Of a stretch of DNA of 16,143 nt, positions 3,030-14,204 are shown piece by piece. A program made the translations under genes and the position numbers. A model generated the notes under the pieces. The model was not told the origin of the DNA and ran no database searches. It saw nothing but the letters and a program-made list of their open reading frames with translations. How positions within the stretch are numbered: position 1 is the first letter of the stretch; each line of letters opens with the position of its first letter. Source of the stretch: Pseudomonadota bacterium (GTDB lineage: Bacteria > Pseudomonadota > Gammaproteobacteria > Acidiferrobacterales > UBA6901); contig JAJXUF010000073.1 in assembly GCA_021783175.1 (NCBI GenBank), positions 1 to 16,143 of the forward strand, written 5' to 3'.

Positions 3030-3773
3030 TTAGCTCATATACAAACCGCCGTTGACGTTAATGGTTTGCCCAGTGACGTATCCATTGCACGCCAACATCA
3101 CGACCACTTCGGCCACTTCTTCTGCCGTGCCAAAACGCCCCGCCGGAATCCGCTCCGGTCGTGCTTGCGGATTGCCGGCGATCATGTCCGTTTCGATCAG
3201 GGCCGGCGCGACGGCATTCACCGTGATGTCTTCCCTGGCCAAGAGCGAGGCATAGGATTGAGTTAAACCCAGAACGCCCGCTTTCGACGCGGTGTAATGC
3301 GGGCCGATGATGCCGCCCAGTTGCACCGCGGCCGAGGACAGGTTGATGATGCGCCCCCATTTCGCCGCGCGCATCCTGGGCAGCACCGCCTGCGTGACCA
3401 GAAAGACCGACTTCAAGTTGACGTCGATGATCTCGTCCCAGTCTTTTTCGGTAATCTCTTCCAAGGACTGCGGACGCGCGACGCCCGCATTATTGACCAG
3501 GATGGACACCGCTCCAAGTTCTTCTTCGACGCGCCGGACCATTCGGGATACCCCGGCGGCGACCGAAACGTCCGCTCGTACCGTAATGCAACGGCGGCTG
3601 TGGCTTTCCACTTGGGAGCCCACCTGCCTGGCCTCGCTCTCGCGGCTGCGGTAGTTGATGGCGATGTCCGCGCCCGCTTCGGCCAGCGCGAGAGCAACGG
3701 CCCGGCCGATGCCGCGGCTGCCGCCCGTGACAAGAGCAATTCTGCCAGTCAGATCACGTGTAGTTGTCACCAT
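3030..3773 (-). CDS. SDR-family oxidoreductase (FabG-like)
   Basis: This is a complete classical short-chain dehydrogenase/reductase of 247 residues, the usual family length. The Rossmann cofactor motif TGGSRGIG is at residues 16-23, NNAG at 94-97 and N119 in the fourth catalytic position. S146/S147 supply the serine, and Y160-x3-K164 (YTASK) completes the active site. Y41-R42 after the second strand suggests NADP(H) preference, which is inference. The C-terminus VTGQTINVNGG is typical of FabG-type 3-oxoacyl-ACP reductases, but many such proteins act on other carbonyl substrates. It lies downstream of the GST and NTF2-like genes on the same strand, though a 350-base gap argues for separate transcription. 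Confidence 0.9.
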   Translation of the reverse strand: MVTTTRDLTGRIALVTGGSRGIGRAVALALAEAGADIAINYRSRESEARQVGSQVESHSRRCITVRADVSVAAGVSRMVRRVEEELGAVSILVNNAGVARPQSLEEITEKDWDEIIDVNLKSVFLVTQAVLPRMRAAKWGRIINLSSAAVQLGGIIGPHYTASKAGVLGLTQSYASLLAREDITVNAVAPALIETDMIAGNPQARPERIPAGRFGTAEEVAEVVVMLACNGYVTGQTINVNGGLYMS

Positions 3774-4122
3774 GTCAAGTCATCCTTTCGGCGTACAGAA
3801 GTGGCTCGGTTGATCTGAACAGATTTCCCCGAGAGCTCAGTGGAGCTTGGTCGGAATTGACGATGTCGGGGGGTCCCAAAGCGCGCCAGCGCATCGTGGA
3901 TCACCTGCACCGCACCTACTACTACGCGAAACGGATGGCGACCTGATGTTTCTCGGGGTCGGCGACCTCTTTCTGATCGGGTTACCTACCGAACGCAGAA
4001 GACACATCCTTGCTCGTGCGGCGACGCAGCAGCGAATCGTTCCTGGTGTTCACCGCCCATGACGCCTGCTTGGCTGGAATGGGGCAGAGTACCGTCGCCG
4101 TCGAAAACCCCCGTCTGCGTTT
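3774..4122. other. Intergenic stretch, possible degraded sequence
   Basis: This 349-base stretch contains short open frames on the plus strand, for example near 3847-4062, but none has a ribosome site or a recognisable family signature. It probably holds the promoter of the SDR gene and decayed sequence left by earlier insertions. I see no IS ends, RNA gene or clear terminator in it. Confidence 0.35.
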
Positions 4123-4536
4123 TCACTTCCCCTTTACGTAACCCATCGCCTCGACAATACGTCCGTCACGGACCCGCATTACATTGAGGCCACGGATGGA
4201 TTGGGTGTCGTCTTCGCCCCAGCAATAGCGCCATCTGATAACGACCCGCTCACCGATGACAAATACCTCTTCACGCACGAACCAAGTCCCCATCGATCTA
4301 GCAAGATCTTGCCAATTCTCTAGGCACGCTGCCTTTCCGATGAGACAGGCTCCGTTTGGAGCGGGGCTTGTTTTCTCAATTACGCAATCATCCGCGACGA
4401 GGTTTTCCATGGCTTTTGGATCGTGACGGTCGAAGGCCTCGTGAAATTTTCGGATGACTTCTTTTGTGGTGATCGCAGTGCTATCCGCTGGACCTAGGAT
4501 AGCGATCTGATCCGGGGTAAGAGATGGATATTTCAT
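4123..4536 (-). CDS. NTF2/SnoaL-like protein
   Basis: This 137-residue protein shows the cone-shaped NTF2-like fold pattern. An N-terminal helix (EVIRKFHEAFDRHDPKAM) leads into the VADDCVIE strand, a second helix around CLENWQDLARSM, and then antiparallel strands VREEVFVIGERVVIRWRY and IRGLNVMRVRDGRIVEAMGY. SnoaL-like proteins of this size are ester cyclases, small isomerases/hydrolases or ligand-binding proteins; no specific reaction can be assigned. The gene starts 48 bases after the GST stop on the same strand and probably belongs to the same transcript. An AGGG ribosome site lies about 8 bases before its ATG. Confidence 0.8.
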   Translation of the reverse strand: MKYPSLTPDQIAILGPADSTAITTKEVIRKFHEAFDRHDPKAMENLVADDCVIEKTSPAPNGACLIGKAACLENWQDLARSMGTWFVREEVFVIGERVVIRWRYCWGEDDTQSIRGLNVMRVRDGRIVEAMGYVKGK

Positions 4537-4584
4537 AAAATGCCCTGTGTGTGAATGTAATACCTATCCTTTAAGGACGGTCTT

Positions 4585-5220
4585 TCAGGACTTTCGCTGG
4601 TGCGCTTGTTCTTGCTGGTACAGGTTCCATTCCTCGTTGATCGCTAACGCAATGCTTGGGCGTTTCTTCATCTTTTGGTAGTAATCCGAGACAGCCGGCC
4701 ACTGCGCCAGGTCGATGCCGACGTAGGTGCTCCAGTTGAGAACGGTGGTCAGATAGGCATCCGCGATGGTGAATCGGTCAAGCAGGAATTCAGAATCCGT
4801 CAGATGGTTTTGCAGAATACGGAATCTCAAGGGGATTTTTTCACGCGCATAGTCCTTTGCTTCTGCGGGCGCTGTTGCGTCAAGCAAGGGGATGAATACG
4901 GCTTTGTGCAATTCTGTGCCAATGAATCCGAGCCATTGTTGCAACTTCGAACGCTGCAATCCGGACAGAGGCGCCAGGTTCGCATCTGGGAAATAATCGG
5001 CGATGAATTGCAACACGGCAGTGTTCTCGGTCAGCACCGTGCCGTCATCGGTTTGCAGCGCCGGCACCTGGCCCATCGGGTTGATCGACAGGAAGTCGGC
5101 CCCATCTTCAGTCCGCTTGGTCTTGGTATCCACGCGCGCGTATTGCGCGGAGGCGCCAGCTTCGTAGAGCGCAATGCGTGAAGCAAGCGAGCAGGCCAAC
5201 GGAGCGAAATAAAGTTTCAT
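4585..5220 (-). CDS. Glutathione S-transferase, beta class
   Basis: This 211-residue cytosolic GST has the full two-domain plan. The N-terminal thioredoxin-like domain starts MKLYFAPLACS with C10, the catalytic cysteine typical of beta-class bacterial GSTs. NPMGQVPAL carries the cis-proline loop, and LTENTAVLQFIADY takes the glutathione gamma-glutamyl contact position. The all-helical C-terminal domain contains FTIADAYLTTVLNW, the conserved GST N-capping motif. The start is placed at 5220 rather than 5229 because GAGGA lies 9 bases upstream of 5220 and is almost adjacent to the earlier ATG. It probably conjugates glutathione to electrophiles. A TetR gene lies divergently upstream and is the likely regulator. 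Confidence 0.92.
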   Translation of the reverse strand: MKLYFAPLACSLASRIALYEAGASAQYARVDTKTKRTEDGADFLSINPMGQVPALQTDDGTVLTENTAVLQFIADYFPDANLAPLSGLQRSKLQQWLGFIGTELHKAVFIPLLDATAPAEAKDYAREKIPLRFRILQNHLTDSEFLLDRFTIADAYLTTVLNWSTYVGIDLAQWPAVSDYYQKMKKRPSIALAINEEWNLYQQEQAHQRKS

Positions 5221-5229
5221 GATTAACAT

Positions 5230-5308
5230 TCCTCTAATGTGGGTATTGTACGAATTGTTTATGTACTGTATTGTATAAAAAACACAACGTCAAGGAATTG
5301 AGTTCGAA
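5230..5308. promoter_or_regulatory. GST/TetR divergent promoter with candidate operator
   Basis: The AT-rich gap between the divergent GST and TetR genes holds two TATTGTA repeats (5244-5250 and 5269-5275) and two GTAC tetrads (5248-5251 and 5263-5266) within TGTACGAATTGTTTATGTAC. The dyad is imperfect and about 20 bp long, the normal size of a TetR-family operator. TTGTAC (5246-5251) and TATTGT (5269-5274), spaced 17 bases, could be the -35/-10 boxes of the tetR promoter, so a bound repressor would cover them. The GST SD sequence (GAGGA) also lies here. Confidence 0.5.
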
Positions 5309-5959
5309 ATGGTACAAAAAGTAAACAAACCGTCTCGCGGGAGACCTCGAGCGTACGACCCAGACACGGCACTCGCGCATGCGACAGAGGCGTTCTGGCA
5401 GAGTGGTTTTTCCGGCACATCCCTGGATGCACTAAGTTCGGCTACAGGCATGAAGCGGCCCAGCCTGTACGGCGCATTTGGCGACAAACGTGCGCTCTAC
5501 CTGACGACGCTTGAGCGTTATATTGGGGGCGGGCTCGCTTTGATGCGCGATGCGCTGGACGCAGATTTGCCATTGCGAATTGGGCTAAAGCGGGTATACG
5601 AAGGCGCGCTTTCTCTCTACTTCAGTAACAAGGGGGCTGCACGTGGCTGCTTCTTGATCGGCACGGCCGCCACCGAGGCCCCCAATGATCCGGAAGTACG
5701 GACAAGGCTTGGCGAAGGGTTGCGCCAGTTTGATGGCGCGTTCGAAGCGCGGTTACGACAGGCTCAGGTACAAGGTGAACTGGACGAAGCAGTCGATTCT
5801 GCTTCAATGGCGAAGATCGCTTCGGCGATCTTGCACACCCTCGCGGTTCGCTCGCGAGCCGGAGATTCGCGTGCGTCCTTGCGCAAGATTGCAGAAGCGG
5901 GCATCGAGCTTATCTGTGGCCCCATCCGCGGTACGAAGGGCAAACGTCAACATCGATAG
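5309..5959 (+). CDS. TetR-family transcriptional regulator
   Basis: This 216-residue protein has the normal TetR length. The N-terminal HTH is clear: ALAHATEAFWQSGFSGTSLD (residues 21-40) forms helix 1 and the turn, and ALSSATGMKRPSLYGAFGDK (41-60) holds the recognition helix with the family's SLYxxFGDK ending. The C-terminal half is a helical ligand-binding domain with a GCFLIGTAA stretch typical of the group of regulators that control GST, SDR or nitroreductase genes. It is transcribed away from the GST gene and probably represses both. An AAGGA site lies about 12 bases before the ATG, a rather long spacing. It ends just before an IS630 remnant on the opposite strand. Confidence 0.92.
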   Translation: MVQKVNKPSRGRPRAYDPDTALAHATEAFWQSGFSGTSLDALSSATGMKRPSLYGAFGDKRALYLTTLERYIGGGLALMRDALDADLPLRIGLKRVYEGALSLYFSNKGAARGCFLIGTAATEAPNDPEVRTRLGEGLRQFDGAFEARLRQAQVQGELDEAVDSASMAKIASAILHTLAVRSRAGDSRASLRKIAEAGIELICGPIRGTKGKRQHR

Positions 5960-7138: not shown

Positions 7139-7510
7139 ATGGAAGACGGACTCAAGAAATTAAGCGAAACCTGGCGAGACGAGCTGGCCCGCCAAAGCCT
7201 GGCTGGCCGGGTGCTGGCCGAGTTCATACACATCAAACGCTTCCGGCTCGAGAAGTGCCCGTGGCGCCGGATCGCCGAAGCAATGGGTGTCAACCCGGAA
7301 TCACTGCGACGGGCATTCCGGACGATCAACCACAAGGTCGAGGCCGGACAACTCATCCCGCCGGTCCCCGAACCGCGAAGCAAGGCGGTAACCACAGCGC
7401 CCCGGCCGTCGGCGCCTGGCGCACCGCCGCCTCCAAGCGCCGGCGGCAGCAAGCCCGCGGGGTCAGCCGATCTGGACAAACTCAAGGAAGCAGGAATCAC
7501 CTTCGAATGA
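7139..7510 (+). CDS. TraK/StbA-like oriT- or repeat-binding protein
   Basis: This 123-residue protein has an N-terminal helical DNA-binding half; WRRIAEAMGVNPESLRRAFR (residues 41-60) reads as a helix-turn-helix. A Pro/Ala/Ser-rich linker (about residues 75-105) and a short C-terminal tail ending AGITFE follow. RP4 TraK has the same plan: HTH, P/A-rich linker and a short GFTF-type tail. Identification rests on this architecture and on the next two genes, which match TraL and TraM in order. AAGGAGG lies 5-6 bases before the ATG, and a GGCGGCG/CGCCGCC stem (7102-7120) precedes it. Its likely target is the repeat array just upstream, which would also give autoregulation. Confidence 0.65.
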   Translation: MEDGLKKLSETWRDELARQSLAGRVLAEFIHIKRFRLEKCPWRRIAEAMGVNPESLRRAFRTINHKVEAGQLIPPVPEPRSKAVTTAPRPSAPGAPPPPSAGGSKPAGSADLDKLKEAGITFE

Positions 7511-7586
7511 ACCCTGCGCGGAATTTCCGCACGGACCTCTGTATGAGGGCCGCAATCCCGCGGCACCTATATAAGGAGACCAGACC

Positions 7587-8315
7587 ATGGGAAAGATTGT
7601 CATCAGTGGGGGAGACAAAGGCGGTGTCGGCAAGTCGATGGCCTCGGCCCTGGCTGCGGATATCTTGATCGCCGCCGGTCAAACGCTGCTCATCATCGAA
7701 GGCGATGCAGCGATTCCGGACATCGCCCTGCGCTTCAGCACCTGCGCGCAGGTGGAAACGACCGGGGTCAACCTCAACCGCGCCGGCGACCAGGAAGCGG
7801 CCGTCACCCGCTTAGGGAACGCCCTGGAGAAAGCCGCAGACAAAAGACAAGACGTCCTCATCAACCTGCCGGCCGGCAGCGCGGACACGCTCGATGACCT
7901 GGCCCCAGTCATTCGCGAGATCGCCGACGCCAGTGGTTTCACCCTGCGCGTCCTGTATTCGCTCGGTCCCCATCGCTCGTCCACCGACAGCCTCATCAAG
8001 TCGTTTACCCAGGGTCTGCTCGGCAGCGTCGATCCCGCCCACCGGACCCTCGTCTTCCCCGCATTCTTAGGCTCGCCCGAGTCCTTCGACTGGCTCAAGC
8101 ACCCCAGCCGGCCGGCGTTCATCGCCACCGGTGGTAGAGAGACGGTCGTCCCGGCCCTGCGCCCGGATACGATCCGCGACCGGGTTCTCGCCTCACCGGG
8201 CACCTTCACCGCCCTGGGCGAAAACAAGGAAGCGCTGACATTGACCGAGCGTGCGCTCTTCAAACGCTGGCTCGCGCACAGTCACACAGCCATAGCTGCA
8301 GCGCTGGGCGACTAA
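7587..8315 (+). CDS. TraL/StbB-like ParA-family ATPase
   Basis: This 242-residue protein has a deviant Walker A motif, KGGVGKS at residues 11-17, followed by a Walker A' region (LIIEGDAAIPD), as in ParA/MinD ATPases. RP4 TraL (241 residues) and R388 StbB have the same size, fold and place in the operon. Those proteins help plasmid positioning or conjugation by an ATPase switch; for this protein that is inference. The canonical D in DxD after strand 2 appears as EGD. AAGGAG lies 9 bases upstream of the ATG. The gap from the traK-like gene is 76 bases, with the gene on the same strand. Pairs with traK-like and traM-like proteins. Confidence 0.75.
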   Translation: MGKIVISGGDKGGVGKSMASALAADILIAAGQTLLIIEGDAAIPDIALRFSTCAQVETTGVNLNRAGDQEAAVTRLGNALEKAADKRQDVLINLPAGSADTLDDLAPVIREIADASGFTLRVLYSLGPHRSSTDSLIKSFTQGLLGSVDPAHRTLVFPAFLGSPESFDWLKHPSRPAFIATGGRETVVPALRPDTIRDRVLASPGTFTALGENKEALTLTERALFKRWLAHSHTAIAAALGD

Positions 8316-8324
8316 ACCCACCCT

Positions 8325-8345
8325 CGCCGGGGCGAAGCCCCGGCG
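8325..8345. repeat. 9-bp stem between traL-like and traM-like genes
   Basis: CGCCGGGGC (8325-8333) and GCCCCGGCG (8337-8345) form a perfect stem with the loop GAA. It starts about 10 bases after the traL-like stop and ends about 10 bases before the traM-like ribosome site. No T-tract follows. It may stabilise the upstream mRNA or lower expression of the membrane protein relative to the ATPase. Confidence 0.5.
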
Positions 8346-8367
8346 CATTACCTTGAGGAAAATGACT

Positions 8368-9126
8368 ATGCCCGACAACCCTCAACCACCGACCTCAGCA
8401 CGCGACGCGGCACTCGCGGCCGTGCCGGCTGACCGGCGCGAAGCCGTGCTTTGGCGTGCTTCTGACCTCGGCATTGGCCGGGCCGACGATGTGATCTGGT
8501 CGATCGTGGCCGCGGTCGTCGATGCCCACGCAGCCGCGAGTGCTGCGGGCAATGCCGCAACGACAGTCGAAAAGGAAACCGCGGCGATTCCGGAGCTCAT
8601 CTACCGCGGAACAATAAAAGCCGGCGAGGACCTGCGGGGCCAGATCACGGCCGCGAGTGACACAGTCGGGAAAAAGTTCCTCGATGCCGCGCGCGCCCAG
8701 AGTATAACGCTGCAGGCCGGACTCACCGGCGCCATTACGGAGGCCGCGGAGCGCGGTGGTGCCGCCCTGGACAAGGCGATTGCCGACCTCGATTGCGCGG
8801 CGCTGTCACAGCGCGACGCGAACATTGAGGAATGGCGGGCGGCCGCCGCGGTCGCGATCCGGAACGAGGTGCGTGCCGGCCTGGCCGGCCGAATGGCGAA
8901 AAGCTGGGGCCTGGTCGCGGGCAGTCTGCTGTTCGCCGCCGTGCTCGGTGCCGCCGCGGCGCTGAGTGTGAGCAGCCGCCTCCAGGGTCGGGTCGGGGAT
9001 GGCCTGCCGGCGGGCTGGCATTTTGTGCGATCCGGCGCCTGGAACGAGATCTATATTGACGGGCCGGTGCGGACCGTTGCCGGCTGTAGTCCGGGCGATG
9101 TGTGCCTGGCCACACGCGCCCGGTAA
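8368..9126 (+). CDS. TraM/StbC-like membrane protein
   Basis: The N-terminal 95 residues follow the RP4 TraM pattern: LAAVPADRREAVLWRASDLG, ADDVIWSIVAAVVDAHAAA, then IPELIYRGTIKAGEDLRGQI. A long Ala-rich helical region continues to about residue 178. One membrane helix, GLVAGSLLFAAVLGAAAALS, occupies residues 181-200, followed by a short tail with two cysteines (C240, C246). RP4 TraM is about 146 residues, so this 252-residue form has a C-terminal extension with the membrane anchor. The ATG at 8368 is chosen because GAGGA lies 8 bases upstream; TTG 8353 and ATG 8362 are badly spaced. It probably anchors the TraK/TraL-like partners at the inner membrane, which is inference. Confidence 0.65.
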   Translation: MPDNPQPPTSARDAALAAVPADRREAVLWRASDLGIGRADDVIWSIVAAVVDAHAAASAAGNAATTVEKETAAIPELIYRGTIKAGEDLRGQITAASDTVGKKFLDAARAQSITLQAGLTGAITEAAERGGAALDKAIADLDCAALSQRDANIEEWRAAAAVAIRNEVRAGLAGRMAKSWGLVAGSLLFAAVLGAAAALSVSSRLQGRVGDGLPAGWHFVRSGAWNEIYIDGPVRTVAGCSPGDVCLATRAR

Positions 9127-9237
9127 GATTGCCGACCCGCGACAGCCTCGGCAACCTCGGCAACCTCACGCACGGGACGTTGCCGAACGGTACGGTGATC
9201 GACGGGCGAAATCGCCGTCTTAGCCTCACCCACCTGG
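9127..9237. other. Short spacer with a tandem repeat
   Basis: The spacer carries CTCGGCAACC repeated in tandem (two full copies and a partial third within about 9148-9171) just downstream of the traM-like stop codon. No gene is supported here; the sequence runs into an ISL3 transposase remnant. Confidence 0.4.
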
Positions 9238-9521
9238 GCGGGCAAGTTTCTCGATGGCTGGTGTCGAGATGTGCTGCGTTCGCGTATCGAGCCGATGAAG
9301 AAAATCGCCCGGATGTGCCGGCGTCTCCGCGAGCTCATTTTGAACTGGTTCCAGGCCAAAGGAAAAATATCAAACGGTGTCGTGGAAGGGATGAGCGACA
9401 AGTCCAAACTCACTATCAAAAAAATCCTATGGTTTCTGGTCACCAGGAGATCCTGGAAATGGCTTTATTACACGCCTTGGGTAAACTACCGGAAGCGAAA
9501 CTGACCCATGAATTCTACTGA
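9238..9521 (+). pseudogene. ISL3-family transposase C-terminal remnant, frameshifted
   Basis: One frame reads GKFLDGWCRDVLRSRIEPMK, RELILNWFQAKGKISNGVVE and GMSDKSKLTIKK, the end of an ISL3-family DDE transposase with the catalytic glutamate in VVEGM. At the A-run near 9418-9425 the frame is lost, and the next frame continues as EILEMALLHALGKLPEAKL and THEFY, the usual ISL3 C-terminus, to a stop at 9519-9521. The N-terminal three quarters are missing. It lies directly before the cassette array and may have removed its left boundary. Confidence 0.8.
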
Positions 9522-9617
9522 CGAGCCAAAAATTAAGACCAGTCTGCAATTCGGTCTCAACCGAGGATATACTGACAAAGACGTCCGTATATTCACTGGC
9601 AGGCTTCACGGAAACGT

Positions 9618-10247
9618 ATGGGACATGAAGTAATTCTGCACTGCCCGCACTGCGGAAACACCGCTCCGCAAAGGTTCGCGTTTGGGCACGAATACGAGGA
9701 CCGTGATATATACAATACAGATGGAACCCTAGCCGATCTTTCCCTCCCGTGCAGGTACGAAGTGCGAATCTGCTCGACTTGCAAGGAACTGATCCTTTAT
9801 CACGGCGACGTTATTTCAGAACTGGATGTTGTTTATCCTTCAAAGCACTCACTAGATGATTCTGTTCCTTTCGCTATTCGAGAGTGCTATGACGAGGCGT
9901 CCCTAATACGTCGAACATCACCATCCGCCTATGCGGTGCTGTTGCGTAGAGGCTTGGAGGCAATCTGCGACGACCGAGGCGCAAAGTCAGGCCCCTTACA
10001 TGCACGCCTTGGCGAGCTTACGTCGCGCGGAGAGATTCCAGCAGCGATCTCTGAAATGACAGCAATCCTGAGAAATATTGGCAATGCGGGCGCACATACT
10101 AACAAAGACACGGTCACAGTCCCAATGACTTGGGTAATGAGTGAGCTGTTCCGCGCGGTTGTAGAATACGTTTATGTTGCACCGAGTAGAGTGGAGTCCT
10201 TGAAGAAATCACTTAAGTCTTTCGAAAAAGCAAAGAGTGAAACCTAA
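9618..10247 (+). CDS. Zinc-ribbon DUF4145 (HEPN-like) protein, cassette 1
   Basis: This 209-residue protein has two CxxC knuckles, C9-x2-C12 and C52-x2-C55, forming an N-terminal zinc ribbon. A helical DUF4145 domain follows: SPSAYAVLLRRGLEAICDD and later ILRNIGNAGAH (residues 150-160), the family signature with R152 and H160. DUF4145 belongs to the wider HEPN-like all-helical group and occurs in defence-associated and restriction-linked proteins; its catalytic status is uncertain because the spacing differs from the classical RX4-6H RNase motif. The TAA stop lies inside the RYYYAAC box of the following attC site. The ribosome site before the ATG is weak. Confidence 0.85.
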   Translation: MGHEVILHCPHCGNTAPQRFAFGHEYEDRDIYNTDGTLADLSLPCRYEVRICSTCKELILYHGDVISELDVVYPSKHSLDDSVPFAIRECYDEASLIRRTSPSAYAVLLRRGLEAICDDRGAKSGPLHARLGELTSRGEIPAAISEMTAILRNIGNAGAHTNKDTVTVPMTWVMSELFRAVVEYVYVAPSRVESLKKSLKSFEKAKSET

Positions 10248-10328
10248 CAACGCCATTAACGTGAGCAGTGAAAAGCGGTGCGACGAAGGCGCACCGCTTT
10301 TCACTGCCGGTTATGGGGAACGTTTGTC
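10242..10328 (+). repeat. attC site of cassette 1
   Basis: ACCTAAC (10242-10248) matches RYYYAAC. The inner CCATTAAC (10253-10260) pairs with GTTATGG (10310-10316) leaving one unpaired T, the extrahelical base typical of folded attC sites. The centre is a perfect 17-bp stem (10266-10282 with 10290-10306) and a 7-base loop. The right box GTTTGTC (10322-10328) departs from GTTRRRY after GTT. The wording AACAACGCCAT...GGTTATGGGGAACGTT is typical of chromosomal integron attC sites. A terminator reading is less likely, as no T-tract follows. Confidence 0.7.
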
Positions 10329-10335
10329 GTCATAG

Positions 10336-10911
10336 GTGAGAACACAGATCGCAAGGTCAGGGCAGCAGCAAATCCCATCGTGCAAATTCGTCTGTGGTTT
10401 CTGCGGTTTCTCAGTAGCGTCCGTTGTGGGCTACAACTTTGACAGCCGTGAATTGGGATACGGGTTCATTCACATTTGCCATCACTGTGAAAAACCAAGT
10501 TTCTTCTATCTCGGAATGCAAGTTCCGGGTATTGCACCAGGCAATGAGGTAGCGCATCTGCCAAAATATATTGAGGCCCTTTACAAGGAAGCGCGCAATG
10601 CTGTCTCTGTGGGCGCCTATACCGCGTCGGTGCTTGCGTGCCGAAAACTGCTAATGAGCAATGCGATTACGCAAGGCGCGAAGGCTGGCGAAAGCTTCTT
10701 GAGCTACGTGGACCATCTGGCAAACGCAGAGTTTGTACCACCGAACGGGCTCGGTTGGGTCGACCACATTCGCAAGAAAGGGATTGAAGCAAACCATGAG
10801 ATCAAGCTAATGGCGCAAGCCGTTGCAGAGGAGCTGATCGCATTCACGGAAATGCTGCTGAAGTTCATCTATGAGTTCCCAAACCGTGTATCCGCACCGC
10901 CAAAGCGGTAA
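10336..10911 (+). CDS. Zinc-ribbon DUF4145 (HEPN-like) protein, cassette 2
   Basis: This 191-residue protein has the same plan as cassette 1. Cysteines C16/C20/C23 and C48-x2-C51 form an N-terminal zinc ribbon. A helical DUF4145 domain follows with YKEARNAVSVGAYTASVLAC, RKLL, and later HIRKKGIEANHE (R146, H154), the degenerate R...H signature. Sequence identity to cassette 1 is low by eye, so this is an old paralogue or an independent capture rather than a recent duplication. The GTG start at 10336 lies seven bases after the attC site and has no clear ribosome site; a start further downstream cannot be excluded. Confidence 0.75.
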   Translation: MRTQIARSGQQQIPSCKFVCGFCGFSVASVVGYNFDSRELGYGFIHICHHCEKPSFFYLGMQVPGIAPGNEVAHLPKYIEALYKEARNAVSVGAYTASVLACRKLLMSNAITQGAKAGESFLSYVDHLANAEFVPPNGLGWVDHIRKKGIEANHEIKLMAQAVAEELIAFTEMLLKFIYEFPNRVSAPPKR

Positions 10912-10914
10912 GGC

Positions 10915-11012
10915 GCCCAACAACCGCTTCCACTGGACGTCGGCGCTAACGCGCCGTCGCCAGTGATGGCTTCGAGCAGATCGAGCAGAATGACACGAGT
11001 CAAATGTTAAAC
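10915..11012 (+). repeat. attC-like site of cassette 2
   Basis: GCCCAAC (10915-10921) fits RYYYAAC and GTTAAAC (11006-11012) fits GTTRRRY. Between them, CACTGG-A-CG-T-CGGCGC pairs with GCGCCG-T-CG-CCAGTG around a TAAC loop (10931-10965), leaving A10937 unpaired as an extrahelical base. The right half contains about 40 extra bases between the stem and GTTAAAC, which makes it asymmetric. It starts three bases after the cassette 2 stop codon. Confidence 0.6.
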
Positions 11013-11021
11013 GCCTAAACC

Positions 11022-11818
11022 ATGCCCCATGGAACCGTCACGCTGTTGGATAACGCCTTGTTGTTTGTTAATGAGGCAATTTGCAATGCCCGGCGCGCCA
11101 AGCGTCAGCCGATGTACTGGTCCTTCGCGATCTTGCACCTTGTTCAGGGTCTGGAGTTGTTGATGAAACACGTCCTCCAGCTACAGCATCCTTATTTATC
11201 TTTGAGGATATAGACAACCCCAAGAACACTGCCAGCCTGACACTTTGCCTTAGCAGGCTGAAATCAATCGCGAAGATTGAGGTCGACGAAAAGGAAGAAC
11301 GTGCCATTAAGCGCGCGAGCACTCAGCGCAACAAGATCGTTCATTACGAACACGACTTGAATCCTGACTACTACCGTTCCGTTTTCGTCGGATTGTTCGA
11401 ATTCATTCACTACTTTCATGCTAAGCACCTGCAGGGAGAGCTACATGATCGGATTGACCCTAAGCTCTGGCGCATAGAAGCAGAGCTACTTTCTCAGTTT
11501 GATAACGAATGGGTGACATACCGTGGGAAACGCTTGCCGAGCAAACTGCCATTCGACATCGTCGTGGCACAGCGCTACTCAATGGTGCGCAAATCAACGG
11601 TTACTGGCTTCGACTACCTGCCTCGTGAACGGTACGATGGTAGCCTAGGTCCGGAATGTCCGGATTGCGGTGTCAATGCCGACGAGTTTCACACGGCCTT
11701 CTGCGACATTGAATGCTGTCCAAGCTGCGGGCACCAGCTCCTGATGTGTCTGGTGTCCACCGCGGATTACTGCAACGTTGAGTACTGGCTACCAGTCAAG
11801 GGAAAGGGTTTGGCGTGA
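11022..11818 (+). pseudogene. HEPN/zinc-ribbon protein with one frameshift, cassette 3
   Basis: The first frame from ATG 11022 gives a helical start, YWSFAILHLVQGLELLMKHV, and stops at 11213. The natural continuation lies in another frame from about 11190: FIFEDIDNPKNT, then RNKIVHYEHD with a perfect RX4H HEPN motif, and a C-terminal zinc ribbon CPDCG...CCPSCG. One missing base near 11190-11191 (CATCC then TTATTT) joins the frames into a product of about 265 residues. The FEDIDN motif is shared by a family of HEPN-domain hypothetical proteins. This is a frameshifted gene, a sequencing error or, less likely, programmed frameshifting. No ribosome site is seen before the ATG. Confidence 0.75.
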
Positions 11819-11825
11819 CAGATAT

Positions 11826-11843
11826 GCCTAATAACTGTTGGGC
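11826..11843 (+). repeat. Collapsed attC site between cassettes 3 and 4
   Basis: GCCTAAT (11826-11832) matches RYYYAAC except for its last base, and GTTGGGC (11837-11843) is a perfect GTTRRRY box. Only four bases separate them, so the whole folded centre of a normal attC is absent. The site starts 7 bases after the cassette 3 stop codon, and cassette 4 begins 23 bases after it. This looks like an internal deletion that kept only the two outer core boxes. Confidence 0.45.
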
Positions 11844-11866
11844 TTCATGAAGTTGAAGGAGTCGCT

Positions 11867-12319
11867 ATGCCGTTACGGGATGACGGTGACGTAGTTCGTG
11901 GCTTGGGCTTTGTCGCGCTATATGCGGCTTACTTGGAAGAGCAGATTGACAACCTTCTTTTCATGCTTCGGCCAGTCGAACCGTTTCCGGAAAATGAGCT
12001 GCGCTGGTCCATAAGTCGAAAGATCGCGAAGGCAAAACGGTTGGTAGCCACGCTGGTATTCGATTATCGAGATGGTTTGCTCGCCGACTTGAGCACGTCA
12101 AGTCAACTGCTCGAAAGGCGAAATGAAGTGATTCACGGTCGAATCTATGCCAGTTTTGATCGGCCAGATACCCTGAAGGCTGGCCGCCCCAATATACCTG
12201 ACCGGGTGGTTGAACCTGGTGAACTATACGAACTGGCCAATAATCTCGACGAGGCTCGTTTGGCTATTTGCAGGCCCATGATATTTCAAATTCCTCGGGC
12301 CATGCAGGCTAACCGATGA
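11867..12319 (+). CDS. Small HEPN-motif protein, cassette 4
   Basis: This 150-residue, largely helical protein contains a clear RX4H motif at R85-NEVI-H90 (LLERRNEVIHG), the signature of HEPN ribonucleases. GLGFVALYAAYLEEQIDNLL (residues 12-31) would form the first long helix. I do not recognise a more specific family. The ribosome site AAGGAG lies 6 bases before the ATG, the best in the array. The gene follows the collapsed attC, so it may be co-transcribed with cassette 3. Its stop codon overlaps the left core of the last attC-like site. Confidence 0.7.
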   Translation: MPLRDDGDVVRGLGFVALYAAYLEEQIDNLLFMLRPVEPFPENELRWSISRKIAKAKRLVATLVFDYRDGLLADLSTSSQLLERRNEVIHGRIYASFDRPDTLKAGRPNIPDRVVEPGELYELANNLDEARLAICRPMIFQIPRAMQANR

Positions 12320-12414
12320 GTTCAAATCCTTCGCTCATCCGATCCGCCTGCAAGGCGCAATCCCGGATAGGGGTCATCGGAAAGTGTGCATGAAGGCGTG
12401 ATGAACGGTTAGCC
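12307..12414 (+). repeat. Terminal attC-like site at the array end
   Basis: GGCTAACCG (12307-12315) and CGGTTAGCC (12406-12414) are perfect 9-bp inverted ends. Each core box deviates once from RYYYAAC or GTTRRRY, in a complementary way. The 90-base interior contains smaller stems, such as GCC-TGCA-AGGC and ATCCG/CGGAT, but no single long stem. The right box overlaps the stop codon of the minus-strand P-like gene (12409-12411), so the recombination point lies at that gene's end. Confidence 0.5.
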
Positions 12415-12900
12415 GGTAGCTCCCGTTTGTGTGAGCGCCGCCCGCATCCTGCGCAGGCATTCCTCGCGCTTTTCTGGCGCCATGGGGGGCCAGGGCAGGG
12501 CAACATAAGCGAGGTCAGCGCGCCCGGCGATGTTTTGGTGACAGAGTGGCACGCTCTTTGGCAAGCACATCGCGCGGAACTCAGGCAGGCTAGGGGGCCA
12601 TGCATCGCCGGACGCGATGCAGGCTCGAAGACCCGCCGCCAGCTGCGCGCCTGTGATTCCCCGCAACCCCCCTGCCCAGGTGTGCGCGACATCCGTCAGT
12701 GATCCATCTGGGTTCGCGGCACTTTCTCCGAAGGCCGCGGAAAACTTATGACCGTAGAGGTGGGTCAATCTTTCCCAGAGGTTCACGATCATTCGCGCAT
12801 TGAGACTGCTGGCGCTCACGGCGCTCGAACTCGCGTCGCGATGCGCTGGCTCTTTCCGCGAGACTCGGCCTTGGGTGAGGTGTTGACTGACGTGCCGCAT
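12409..12900 (-). CDS. Phage replication protein P-like (putative helicase loader)
   Basis: This 163-residue protein has a polar N-terminus of about 35 residues and then the conserved core NLWERLTHLYGHKFSAAFGE, DVAHTWAGGLRGITGAQLA and DAWPPSLPEFRAMC. This is the pattern of lambda P-like proteins in proteobacterial phages and islands, which load DnaB helicase at an origin prepared by an O protein. The ATG at 12900 has GGAGG 8 bases upstream, so it is preferred over an internal ATG at 12792. The gene overlaps the upstream O-like gene by 155 bases in another frame. Its last codon overlaps the terminal attC-like site of the cassette array. Confidence 0.75.
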   Translation of the reverse strand: MRHVSQHLTQGRVSRKEPAHRDASSSAVSASSLNARMIVNLWERLTHLYGHKFSAAFGESAANPDGSLTDVAHTWAGGLRGITGAQLAAGLRACIASGDAWPPSLPEFRAMCLPKSVPLCHQNIAGRADLAYVALPWPPMAPEKREECLRRMRAALTQTGATG

Positions 12901-13606
12901 GGTTCGTCCCTCCGTTGCGGGATTGTTGAGAAGCCGTCTGCTCGCGCGCGATCCACCACCGCCACTCCGCCTCCCACGATCGGCGAGGCCGGCGGGCCGT
13001 CCCATACGCTTTGAATCTGCCCGCAATGCGATCGAGATCACCCGCGAGGTCCGGGCGCGCTTCCTTCGCCCAGGCTTCCCAATCCCGGGGTAGGACCCAG
13101 TCTTTCGGCAGGGGACCTGGGACAGGTGCCTCCGGGCCGGCGGGTTTTGATCTCTTTCTTTCAACACAAGGGGTCTCGGCAGCGCGCGCTGGCGCGCGCT
13201 CTTTTTCTAATGGGTGTTCTGTAGGTGTTCTGTATTTAGCGTCGGGGAAACCGACATCCGGTGAACCGACATCCGGAAAACCGGAGTCCGGTTTCTGGAC
13301 TCCGGTCGGCTGGGGGGTGTCATAGACGAACGTCTGGGTCGACCAGCGACCGTGTCCATCCTGTTTTTTGGCGGTCCGGATATAGCCCGCTTCCCGCAGC
13401 TCCCGCAGTGCCGTCAAGATGGCGCTCCTTCCCTCCCGTCCCTCCCGGGCGAGGTCCGCGGCGGTCATCTGAAATCCGTCGGCATTGGAAAGGAGCCGCA
13501 CCAGCACCCCCCGGCCTCGATAGGACAGCCGGTCATCCCGTGCCACCTCATTGCGGATCTGGGTGTAATGGCACTCCGGGCGGGGCGCGCGAATGATCCC
13601 GGTCAT
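12746..13606 (-). CDS. Replication protein O-like initiator
   Basis: This 286-residue protein has an N-terminal winged-helix domain: YTQIRNEVARDDRLSYRGRG, AADLAREGREGRSAILTALR and ELREAGYIRT (about residues 10-85). A low-complexity middle contains pentapeptide repeats PDSGF-PDVGS-PDVGF-PDAKY, followed by RTPTEHPLEKE. The C-terminal part, WEAWAKEARPDLAGDLDRIA with SWEAEWRWWI, is the DUF-like tail of phage replisome organisers. The ATG at 13606 is used because GGAGG lies just upstream. The repeats are encoded by 15-bp iterons, as in lambda O, where the origin lies inside the gene. The P-like gene follows and overlaps it. Confidence 0.75.
   Translation of the reverse strand: MTGIIRAPRPECHYTQIRNEVARDDRLSYRGRGVLVRLLSNADGFQMTAADLAREGREGRSAILTALRELREAGYIRTAKKQDGHGRWSTQTFVYDTPQPTGVQKPDSGFPDVGSPDVGFPDAKYRTPTEHPLEKERAPARAAETPCVERKRSKPAGPEAPVPGPLPKDWVLPRDWEAWAKEARPDLAGDLDRIAGRFKAYGTARRPRRSWEAEWRWWIAREQTASQQSRNGGTNHAARQSTPHPRPSLAERASASRREFERRERQQSQCANDREPLGKIDPPLRS
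13181..13305. other. Putative replication origin inside the O-like gene
   Basis: Read on the minus strand, three to four 15-bp repeats of the form CCGGATGTCGGTTTC lie in 13244-13305. Next comes an A-rich stretch (13201-13243) containing a tandem 11-bp repeat (GGTGTTCTGTA on the plus strand, 13213-13234), then a perfect inverted repeat AGCGCGCGC-TG-GCGCGCGCT (13181-13200). Iterons beside an A-rich strand within the initiator gene is the lambda origin layout. A T-tract after the stem on the plus strand also allows a terminator reading, but no plus-strand gene is expected here. Confidence 0.55.
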
Positions 13607-13658
13607 GGTCCCTCCAACTCCAATCCCGCCGCTTCGCCCGCGGCCTGCGTGCGGGACG

Positions 13659-13964
13659 TCATCGGCCGTCCCCCTCGAACAGATCCCCCTGGACCGCCGC
13701 GATCGCCGCCGCACGCCGGATCGTGGCCGGGTCATCGATCAGCTGGCGCACGCGGCGGGGTGTGACTCCGAGGCGCTGCGCGATGTCATGGATGGACGCG
13801 CCGCCGCGGGCGGCATCGAGGAGTTGCCCGATCCGGCCCGGGACGCCGCGCGGCAATTCGAGCCGGGGGCAACCGGGTTCGGTCTCGTCGGCGTCGGGCG
13901 CGATCGCGTCGATCCGGTCCCAGCCGCCCGGCAGCGCGTCCGGATAGACGAAGCGATGCCTCAT
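13659..13964 (-). CDS. Small HTH DNA-binding protein
   Basis: This 101-residue protein starts MRHRFVYPDALPGGWDRID. Its second half contains ASIHDIAQRLGVTPRRVRQL, a resolvase-type helix-turn-helix, followed by an Ala-rich tail ending DLFEGDGR. The start at 13964 overlaps the stop of the upstream AlpA-like gene in an ATGA tetrad, which indicates translational coupling; GAGG lies about 9 bases before it. The role is probably regulatory within the replication operon. It ends 52 bases before the O-like start. No specific family is recognised beyond the HTH. Confidence 0.75.
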   Translation of the reverse strand: MRHRFVYPDALPGGWDRIDAIAPDADETEPGCPRLELPRGVPGRIGQLLDAARGGASIHDIAQRLGVTPRRVRQLIDDPATIRRAAAIAAVQGDLFEGDGR

Positions 13965-14185
13965 GGTAAACCGCCTCGCGGCCGACCGGGGCCGGGCGCG
14001 ATCGGGCTGTGCGCTGCCTCTTCCGTGCGCCGCGCGAGCCACGCATCGATCTGCTCCCCGGTCCAGCGGCGCAGCCGACCGATCCGGATGGGTGCCGGCA
14101 GCTCCCCGCGTGCCAGCATCAGTTCCGCCTGGCGGCGGCAGATCTGAAGCCGGCTGCACCACTCTTCGATACCAAACGCCTGCAT
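13961..14185 (-). CDS. AlpA/excisionase-like HTH protein
   Basis: This 74-residue protein has the MerR-like winged HTH of AlpA and excisionase proteins: IEEWCSRLQICRRQAELMLA is the HTH, followed by GELPAPIRIGRLRRWTGEQI and DAWLARR, the wing and closing helix. Such proteins regulate or assist integrases and activate early genes of islands and phages. The ATG at 14185 has AGGG about 8-9 bases upstream. The stop overlaps the next gene's start by four bases. No integrase lies nearby in this operon; the only recombinase in the window is 13 kb away. Confidence 0.85.
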   Translation of the reverse strand: MQAFGIEEWCSRLQICRRQAELMLARGELPAPIRIGRLRRWTGEQIDAWLARRTEEAAHSPIAPGPGRPRGGLP

Positions 14186-14204
14186 ATCGTTTTCCCTGTG
14201 CTGG

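Follow-up and report, generated by a model that had tools for sequence, protein, structure and literature searches.

A probable integron cassette array remnant with four probable HEPN-type effector genes in a gammaproteobacterial contig

We analysed a 16,143-nucleotide stretch (the window) of contig JAJXUF010000073.1 from a Pseudomonadota bacterium of the lineage UBA6901 (Gammaproteobacteria, Acidiferrobacterales; assembly GCA_021783175.1), in which four consecutive + strand genes, here called P1 to P4, occupy positions 9618–12319, as a preliminary description drawn from the sequence alone had recorded. The interpretation that we favour, and hold to be probable, is that an integron cassette array collected four unrelated effectors of the HEPN type, each probably acting alone, and survives here, probably within a mobile element, as a worn remnant. 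The genes and the junctions that follow them are given below, where R1 to R3 denote attC covariance models and A to C box rules, all described further on.

9618–10247, + strand: P1, 209 residues, N-terminal zinc ribbon and DUF4145 (HEPN clan), PD-T7-4-like (PF13643, PADLOC, 9y9c)
10242–10328, + strand: attC1, the sole clear attC site, with a perfect 18-bp inner stem, a 7-nt loop and a drifted right box (R1, R2 and R3, inverted repeat, fold z −7.5)
10336–10911, + strand: P2, 191 residues, N-terminal zinc ribbon and DUF4145, with Ile replacing an almost invariant Asn that lies between the Arg and the His of the motif (PF13643, alignment of relatives)
10915–11012, + strand: attC2-like remnant, made up of a left box close behind the P2 stop codon, a stem-loop and the displaced right box GTTAAAC (best score 9.5 bits with R3, E 1.1, below significance; fold z −3.3 to −3.5; rule A)
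11022–11818, + strand: P3, HEPN domain (RN-x3-H) and C-terminal zinc ribbon, PDC-S64-like, frame broken near 11192 (PADLOC, two-frame alignment, fold of a homologue)
11826–11843, + strand: attC3-like remnant, in which just a few bases separate the left box from the right and the core is missing (8.7 bits on the + strand, 9.8 bits on the − strand, E 0.67–0.81, not significant; rule C)
11867–12319, + strand: P4, small HEPN-like protein with R85, N86, H90 and G91 (relatives, AlphaFold2 model, PF18735 in relatives)
12307–12414, + strand: attC4-like remnant, boxes GGCTAAC and GTTAGCC complementary at 7/7 positions but no core that can be recognised, the left box overlapping the end of P4 (no covariance model match; rule B; fold z −1.6 for a stretch shifted by 4 nt)

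The preliminary description had taken all four products for HEPN-like proteins, and the support that we gathered is strong for P1, P2 and P3 and moderate for P4. P1 and P2, which it had read as zinc-ribbon DUF4145 proteins, both match Pfam family PF13643 (DUF4145) above its cut-off of 23.1 bits, P1 with an E-value of 9.8e-16 (58 bits) and P2 with one of 8.1e-6 (26.2 bits). This family has been assigned to the HEPN superfamily (excerpts of PMC3710099), and for both proteins the HEPN assignment draws its strength from that sequence relationship. P1 also matches the PADLOC profile of the Escherichia coli anti-phage system PD-T7-4 (E 1.5e-13), its residues 7–199 aligning with profile positions 14–195 of 211, a stretch of 193 residues that runs along the protein and brings together zinc ribbon and DUF4145 as in that system; PDB entry 9y9c, a solved DUF4145 protein (24 chains in the entry), is a distant relative (E 2.4e-4). 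No P1 relatives turned up in the scan of genome contigs, while plasmids yielded two distant relatives of P1 and four of P2.

In an alignment of 26 DUF4145 rows including P2, Cys52 and Cys55 are present in all 26 and R152, N156 and H160, all of which P1 carries, in 25 each; one row departs by a Lys, and P2, whose row is shifted at that point, departs at N156 and H160. The motif spacing in P1 and P2 is R-x7-H, outside the R-x(4-6)-H of HEPN domains, and we therefore file the two as DUF4145 proteins, and as HEPN only by way of that family; according to excerpts of PMC3710099, HEPN motif spacing is variable and the motif in DUF4145 is ‘mostly conserved (80%)’. Seven relatives of P2 were found in IMG/VR contigs (47–57% identity); the GIEANH of P2 corresponds to GNEATH or GNEANH in them, which means that P2 has lost an otherwise constant Asn, kept in 7/7 aligned relatives and in 25/25 gap-free rows of the DUF4145 alignment. 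In one of these viral contigs (L119:1–1350) the P2 relative lies a short way behind a sequence that, judged by eye, resembles a tRNA-Ser gene, a typical insertion spot.

P3 carries the FEDIDN, RX4H (here RN-x3-H) and C-terminal CxxC...CxxC zinc-ribbon features that had been ascribed to it, and its suspected frame break is real: all seven of seven P3 homologues align in two pieces, residues 1–57 with positions 11022–11192 and residues 58 onward from 11192 in another frame. Both pieces match the PADLOC candidate system PDC-S64 (E 6.6e-5 and 7.7e-10), on the same profile and in order; the candidate differs from P3 in that P3 is frame-broken, and the term PDC-S64 was not found in the literature searched. 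Intact relatives, mostly of about 264 residues with a C-terminal zinc ribbon, belong to a family with 48 other homologues in the database, and the HEPN assignment is strongly supported by the predicted fold of one of them, in which the RX4H motif sits at the end of helix 3 of a HEPN fold. Foldseek searches with the models of the P3 homologue and of P4 gave no match at E 0.001, and HEPN chains stood among the top rows for P3. Across 369 genomes of one class, the P3 family had one divergent relative, with no attC in its 2.2-kb locus. The P3 C-terminal zinc ribbon recurs in many IMG/VR contigs (L037–L116); of 94 relatives there, the best 80 of 94 were kept, and the matches listed cover residues 145–264, mostly the zinc ribbon, with the HEPN part missing. 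As only those residues are covered among the matches listed, we did not count them as P3 homologues.

For P4, the reading as a small RX4H protein proved sound: its motif is RRNEVIH, and R85, N86 and H90 are kept in 38/38 family members. The family has 529 database matches including P4 itself (528 others), and the AlphaFold2 model reaches a predicted local distance difference test score of 87.8. Among the 38 relatives, 16 match PF18735 (HEPN_RiboL-PSP; best E 0.0011), whereas the window protein matches no Pfam family, none of the 38 members matches a PADLOC profile and none of the HEPN chains in PDB is matched in sequence by the P4 profile. The family was not found in viral contigs or plasmids.

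Four HEPN-type genes in a row would be rare among ordinary cassettes. Of 40 array stretches, several of which ended at contig ends, 10 loci shorter than 900 bases were left out and 30 were given to the attC model; their 119 inter-attC units held 108 open reading frames (ORFs); two of these, both P4 relatives, had been the reason for including their loci and were set aside. Among the Pfam families listed for the remaining 106 control ORFs, a scope that leaves out 10 and 16 weaker families in two of the lists, neither DUF4145 nor any RNase-type HEPN family appeared. One ORF carries AadA_C, a nucleotidyltransferase C-terminal domain, and C-terminal domains of aminoglycoside nucleotidyltransferases have been counted as HEPN without the motif (excerpts of PMC3710099); R[NHD]x3H occurs in two, neither of them HEPN-like by eye. 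The upper 95% bound per cassette is thus 2.8% (0/106, among the families listed) or 4.4% (1/106 with AadA_C included). Four in a row at those bounds come to 6e-7 to 4e-6 before any selection effect, which is not a fair p-value, since the window was chosen for this very feature, and the controls stem from a limited set of arrays and were probed less deeply than P3 and P4.

Three attC covariance models were built, R1 from 20 sites, R2 from 45 and R3 from 119. R1 was trained on sites that included those of four loci with P4 relatives (L001, L006, L008 and L010) and R2 on R1 matches there, which makes tests in those loci partly circular; R3, trained on 119 sites of other loci chosen by R2, was used to repeat the test of the P4 relatives. 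R2 recovered 118 sites in 26/30 stretches flanking IntI genes, with matches on a single strand in each stretch, and thus works as an attC detector. In the window, attC1 is significant with all three models (28.8, 26.4 and 31.5 bits; E 6.5e-6, 7.3e-5 and 8.7e-6 with R1, R2 and R3, respectively), and its 16-nt pattern AACAACGCCATYAACG recurs at L006:8458–8473, within the attC that follows a P4 relative, while the rest of the 169 loci lack it. In the window, the arrangement of a gene cassette, one gene with an attC behind it on its own strand, is found for P1 only, and the four attC units of the preliminary description reduce to one significant site. Neither outcome that the description had named as refuting it came about: no two products lack HEPN support, and the attC models do not fail at every junction.

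Several results weigh against the cassette interpretation. The other three junctions remain below significance with R1, R2 and R3, and an unrelated place (3250–3300) scores 10.2 bits, as high as the best of them. Left-box-like sequence occurs at all four gene ends, and rules A, C and B, describing the boxes of the three weak junctions, match only 8, 7 and 11 of 4709 control ORF ends (0.15–0.23%); the same rules, however, catch only 16, 0 and 8 of 108 true cassette ends, and they were fitted after viewing the very sites that they test, so they suggest that the three junctions are worn attC sites and prove nothing. Searches of the window with five integron integrases (tblastn) found no integron integrase, with nothing below E 0.08 except a match at 2–511 (best E 8e-12), which is the XerC-like piece at 74–631 (50 bits for TIGR02249 against a cut-off of 265; 104.9 for XerC). 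Within the window, the array accordingly lacks the adjacent integrase gene of a complete integron. Integrase-less attC clusters are defined by at least two attC sites in a row, and here one junction of four is significant, hence our term remnant. Integron descent, proposed earlier, therefore stands as an account of origin, but the weak junctions, the lack of an integrase in the window, the frame break in P3 and the lost Asn of P2 mark the locus as a remnant and not a working array.

Relatives of P4 reside in cassettes elsewhere. With R3, one in L001 is flanked by attC on both sides (939–1048 and 1839–1907), one in a Methylocaldum array (L006; 22 sites on one strand) lies between attC at 7916–7983 and 8454–8538, and one in Thiobacillus (L010) has one downstream attC; the Methylocaldum contig also carries an integron integrase gene with one internal stop. 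In L008 a site downstream of the P4 relative was seen with R1 only, which was trained on that locus, and R3 lists another at 9365–9437. In L002–L005, L009 and L011, no attC was found beside the P4-relative gene, and at the end of L007 a truncated match scores 11.2 bits. For the relatives of P1 (L117, L118) and P2 (L119–L125), no attC appeared at E up to 1 in the loci scanned. A further DUF4145 gene sits in L170 with an attC site on either side; the 2.8-kb stretch between them also contains a double-zinc-ribbon and a glyoxalase-like gene and may hide an additional attC. In that locus (9934–11867), the DUF4145 gene overlaps a double-zinc-ribbon gene of 385 residues, and the next gene on the integrase side encodes a D12 DNA methyltransferase. 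Integrase genes occurred in 8/12 genomes with a P4 relative against 88/229 (one class, stricter E limit; Fisher p 0.07), a comparison that we did not use.

On the favoured interpretation, an integron integrase no longer nearby would have captured four unrelated single-gene HEPN-type effectors as cassettes. The zinc ribbon, N-terminal in P1 and P2 and C-terminal in P3, may sense or dock, and the HEPN part, as a dimer, would cut RNA on infection; such cutting would stop growth or phage production, each gene probably being a lone anti-phage RNase. A stronger version, in which phage selection sorted the array by mechanism into a defence library of HEPN RNases only, carried on a mobile element and made of redundant effectors with different sensors, strikes us as rather improbable. 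That the four genes instead make up one multi-part HEPN defence system with cooperating products, an option raised in the preliminary description, would suit genes that are closely spaced on one strand and whose four products all probably share a fold class, but we judge it very unlikely. When profiles of the families were run over the 169 loci, no other locus combined two of the four, cross-matches between the two DUF4145 profiles aside; most relatives of P1, P3 and P4 lie in metagenome contigs, outside the reach of this search. The P4 relative has other neighbours in the Methylocaldum array, the P2 relatives sit in viral contigs without P1-, P3- or P4-type partners, and P3 is broken. We take the four as separate single-gene effectors. 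What survives of the functionally coherent defence set once proposed are P1, through PD-T7-4, and P3, through the candidate PDC-S64.

It is unlikely, though deserving of some weight, that this is an ordinary cassette remnant whose four HEPN genes came together by chance and were noticed since a scan selects odd arrays: HEPN cassettes have already been described (excerpts of PMC3710099), a large scan meets rare combinations and the window was chosen for its feature, against which stands the absence of DUF4145 and RNase-type HEPN families, among those listed, from the control ORFs. We think it improbable that the genes are no cassettes at all and that they form a small defence cluster, carried by a plasmid or integrative element, whose attC-like hairpins are coincidental. 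The three failing junctions, the missing integrase and the P1 and P2 relatives without attC would fit such a cluster, but attC1, with E-values from 7e-6 to 7e-5 and a pattern in common with the attC beside a P4 relative, the P4 relatives that are cassettes in L001, L006 and L010, and the left-box-like sequence at every gene end argue for cassettes. Little credence, finally, goes to addiction-module toxins that maintain the array or its element and have no anti-phage role. HEPN toxins with MNT antitoxins are known (from PDB titles), and the control arrays carry toxin genes of the BrnT, RelE, ParE and HigB families; a Pfam scan of the five array ORFs, however, revealed no MNT or other antitoxin family, no adjacent MNT nucleotidyltransferase gene marks the locus as a HEPN–MNT toxin–antitoxin pair, and no further + strand ORF of at least 60 residues lies between the array ORFs.

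Measured against known anti-phage integron cassette arrays, the locus has in common promoterless single genes, at least one true attC and P4 relatives in an array with an integrase gene on its contig; what sets it apart is that the window shows no integrase, that three of the junctions are worn and that all four genes, instead of being a mixture, probably belong to a single fold class. P1 differs from PD-T7-4 in lying in a cassette remnant and being known from sequence, whereas PD-T7-4 homologues often overlap an integrase gene (excerpts of PMC9519451). The integron-cassette HEPN protein of PDB 3jrt, named in excerpts of PMC3710099, is like P4 a small stand-alone RX4H protein on cassettes, but has no sequence match to the P4 profile.

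The composition of the array departs from that of its flanks. G+C content is 50.0–51.6% in P1 to P4, against 65.9% in the left flank (7139–9126) and 66.8% in the right (12415–14200), and G+C at third codon positions is 49.5–57.8% in the three intact array genes against 75.2 and 78.6% in two left-flank genes. No promoter-like or terminator-like patterns were found in 9127–12450, which fits the expectation for promoterless cassettes. Directly left of the array lies a transposase remnant (54.5% G+C):

9271–9504, + strand: remnant of an ISL3-family transposase, bordering the array on its left (PF01610, E 1.2e-7, covering only profile positions 180–223 of 240)

The single plasmid match to the array was weak and fell inside this remnant, and neither flank had a close plasmid relative, so an empty insertion site could not be shown. 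Elsewhere in the window, the XerC-like tyrosine recombinase piece at its left end (74–631) stands beside a RadC gene (700–1188), as on integrative elements. Positions 2097–2214 hold a fragment of group II intron domains 1–4 (Rfam RF01999, 96.8 bits), the only intron part reported in the window at the gathering threshold, and 2578–2784 a DDE_3 transposase remnant (E 1.6e-5). A block of short-chain dehydrogenase, SnoaL-like, glutathione S-transferase and TetR regulator genes (3030–5959) is possibly detoxification cargo.

Excerpts of PMC3710099 note HEPN proteins on integron cassettes and propose them as stress RNases, the DUF4145 protein BxaP has been reported as a phage-defence protein (excerpts of PMC10799925) and, according to work cited in a Xanthomonas study, 20% of the Vibrio cholerae cassettes that lack a predicted function are anti-phage (excerpts of PMC12444791). 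With such examples in print, the kind is known, and the window offers an unusual, decaying example of it. As natural evidence, the array strengthens the case that integron cassettes repeatedly carry small HEPN and DUF4145 genes. The P3 and P4 families are little described and open to direct phage-defence assay, and annotation pipelines probably miss the P4 family, which for all its hundreds of relatives gives no Pfam match for P4 itself and no PADLOC match for 38 members.

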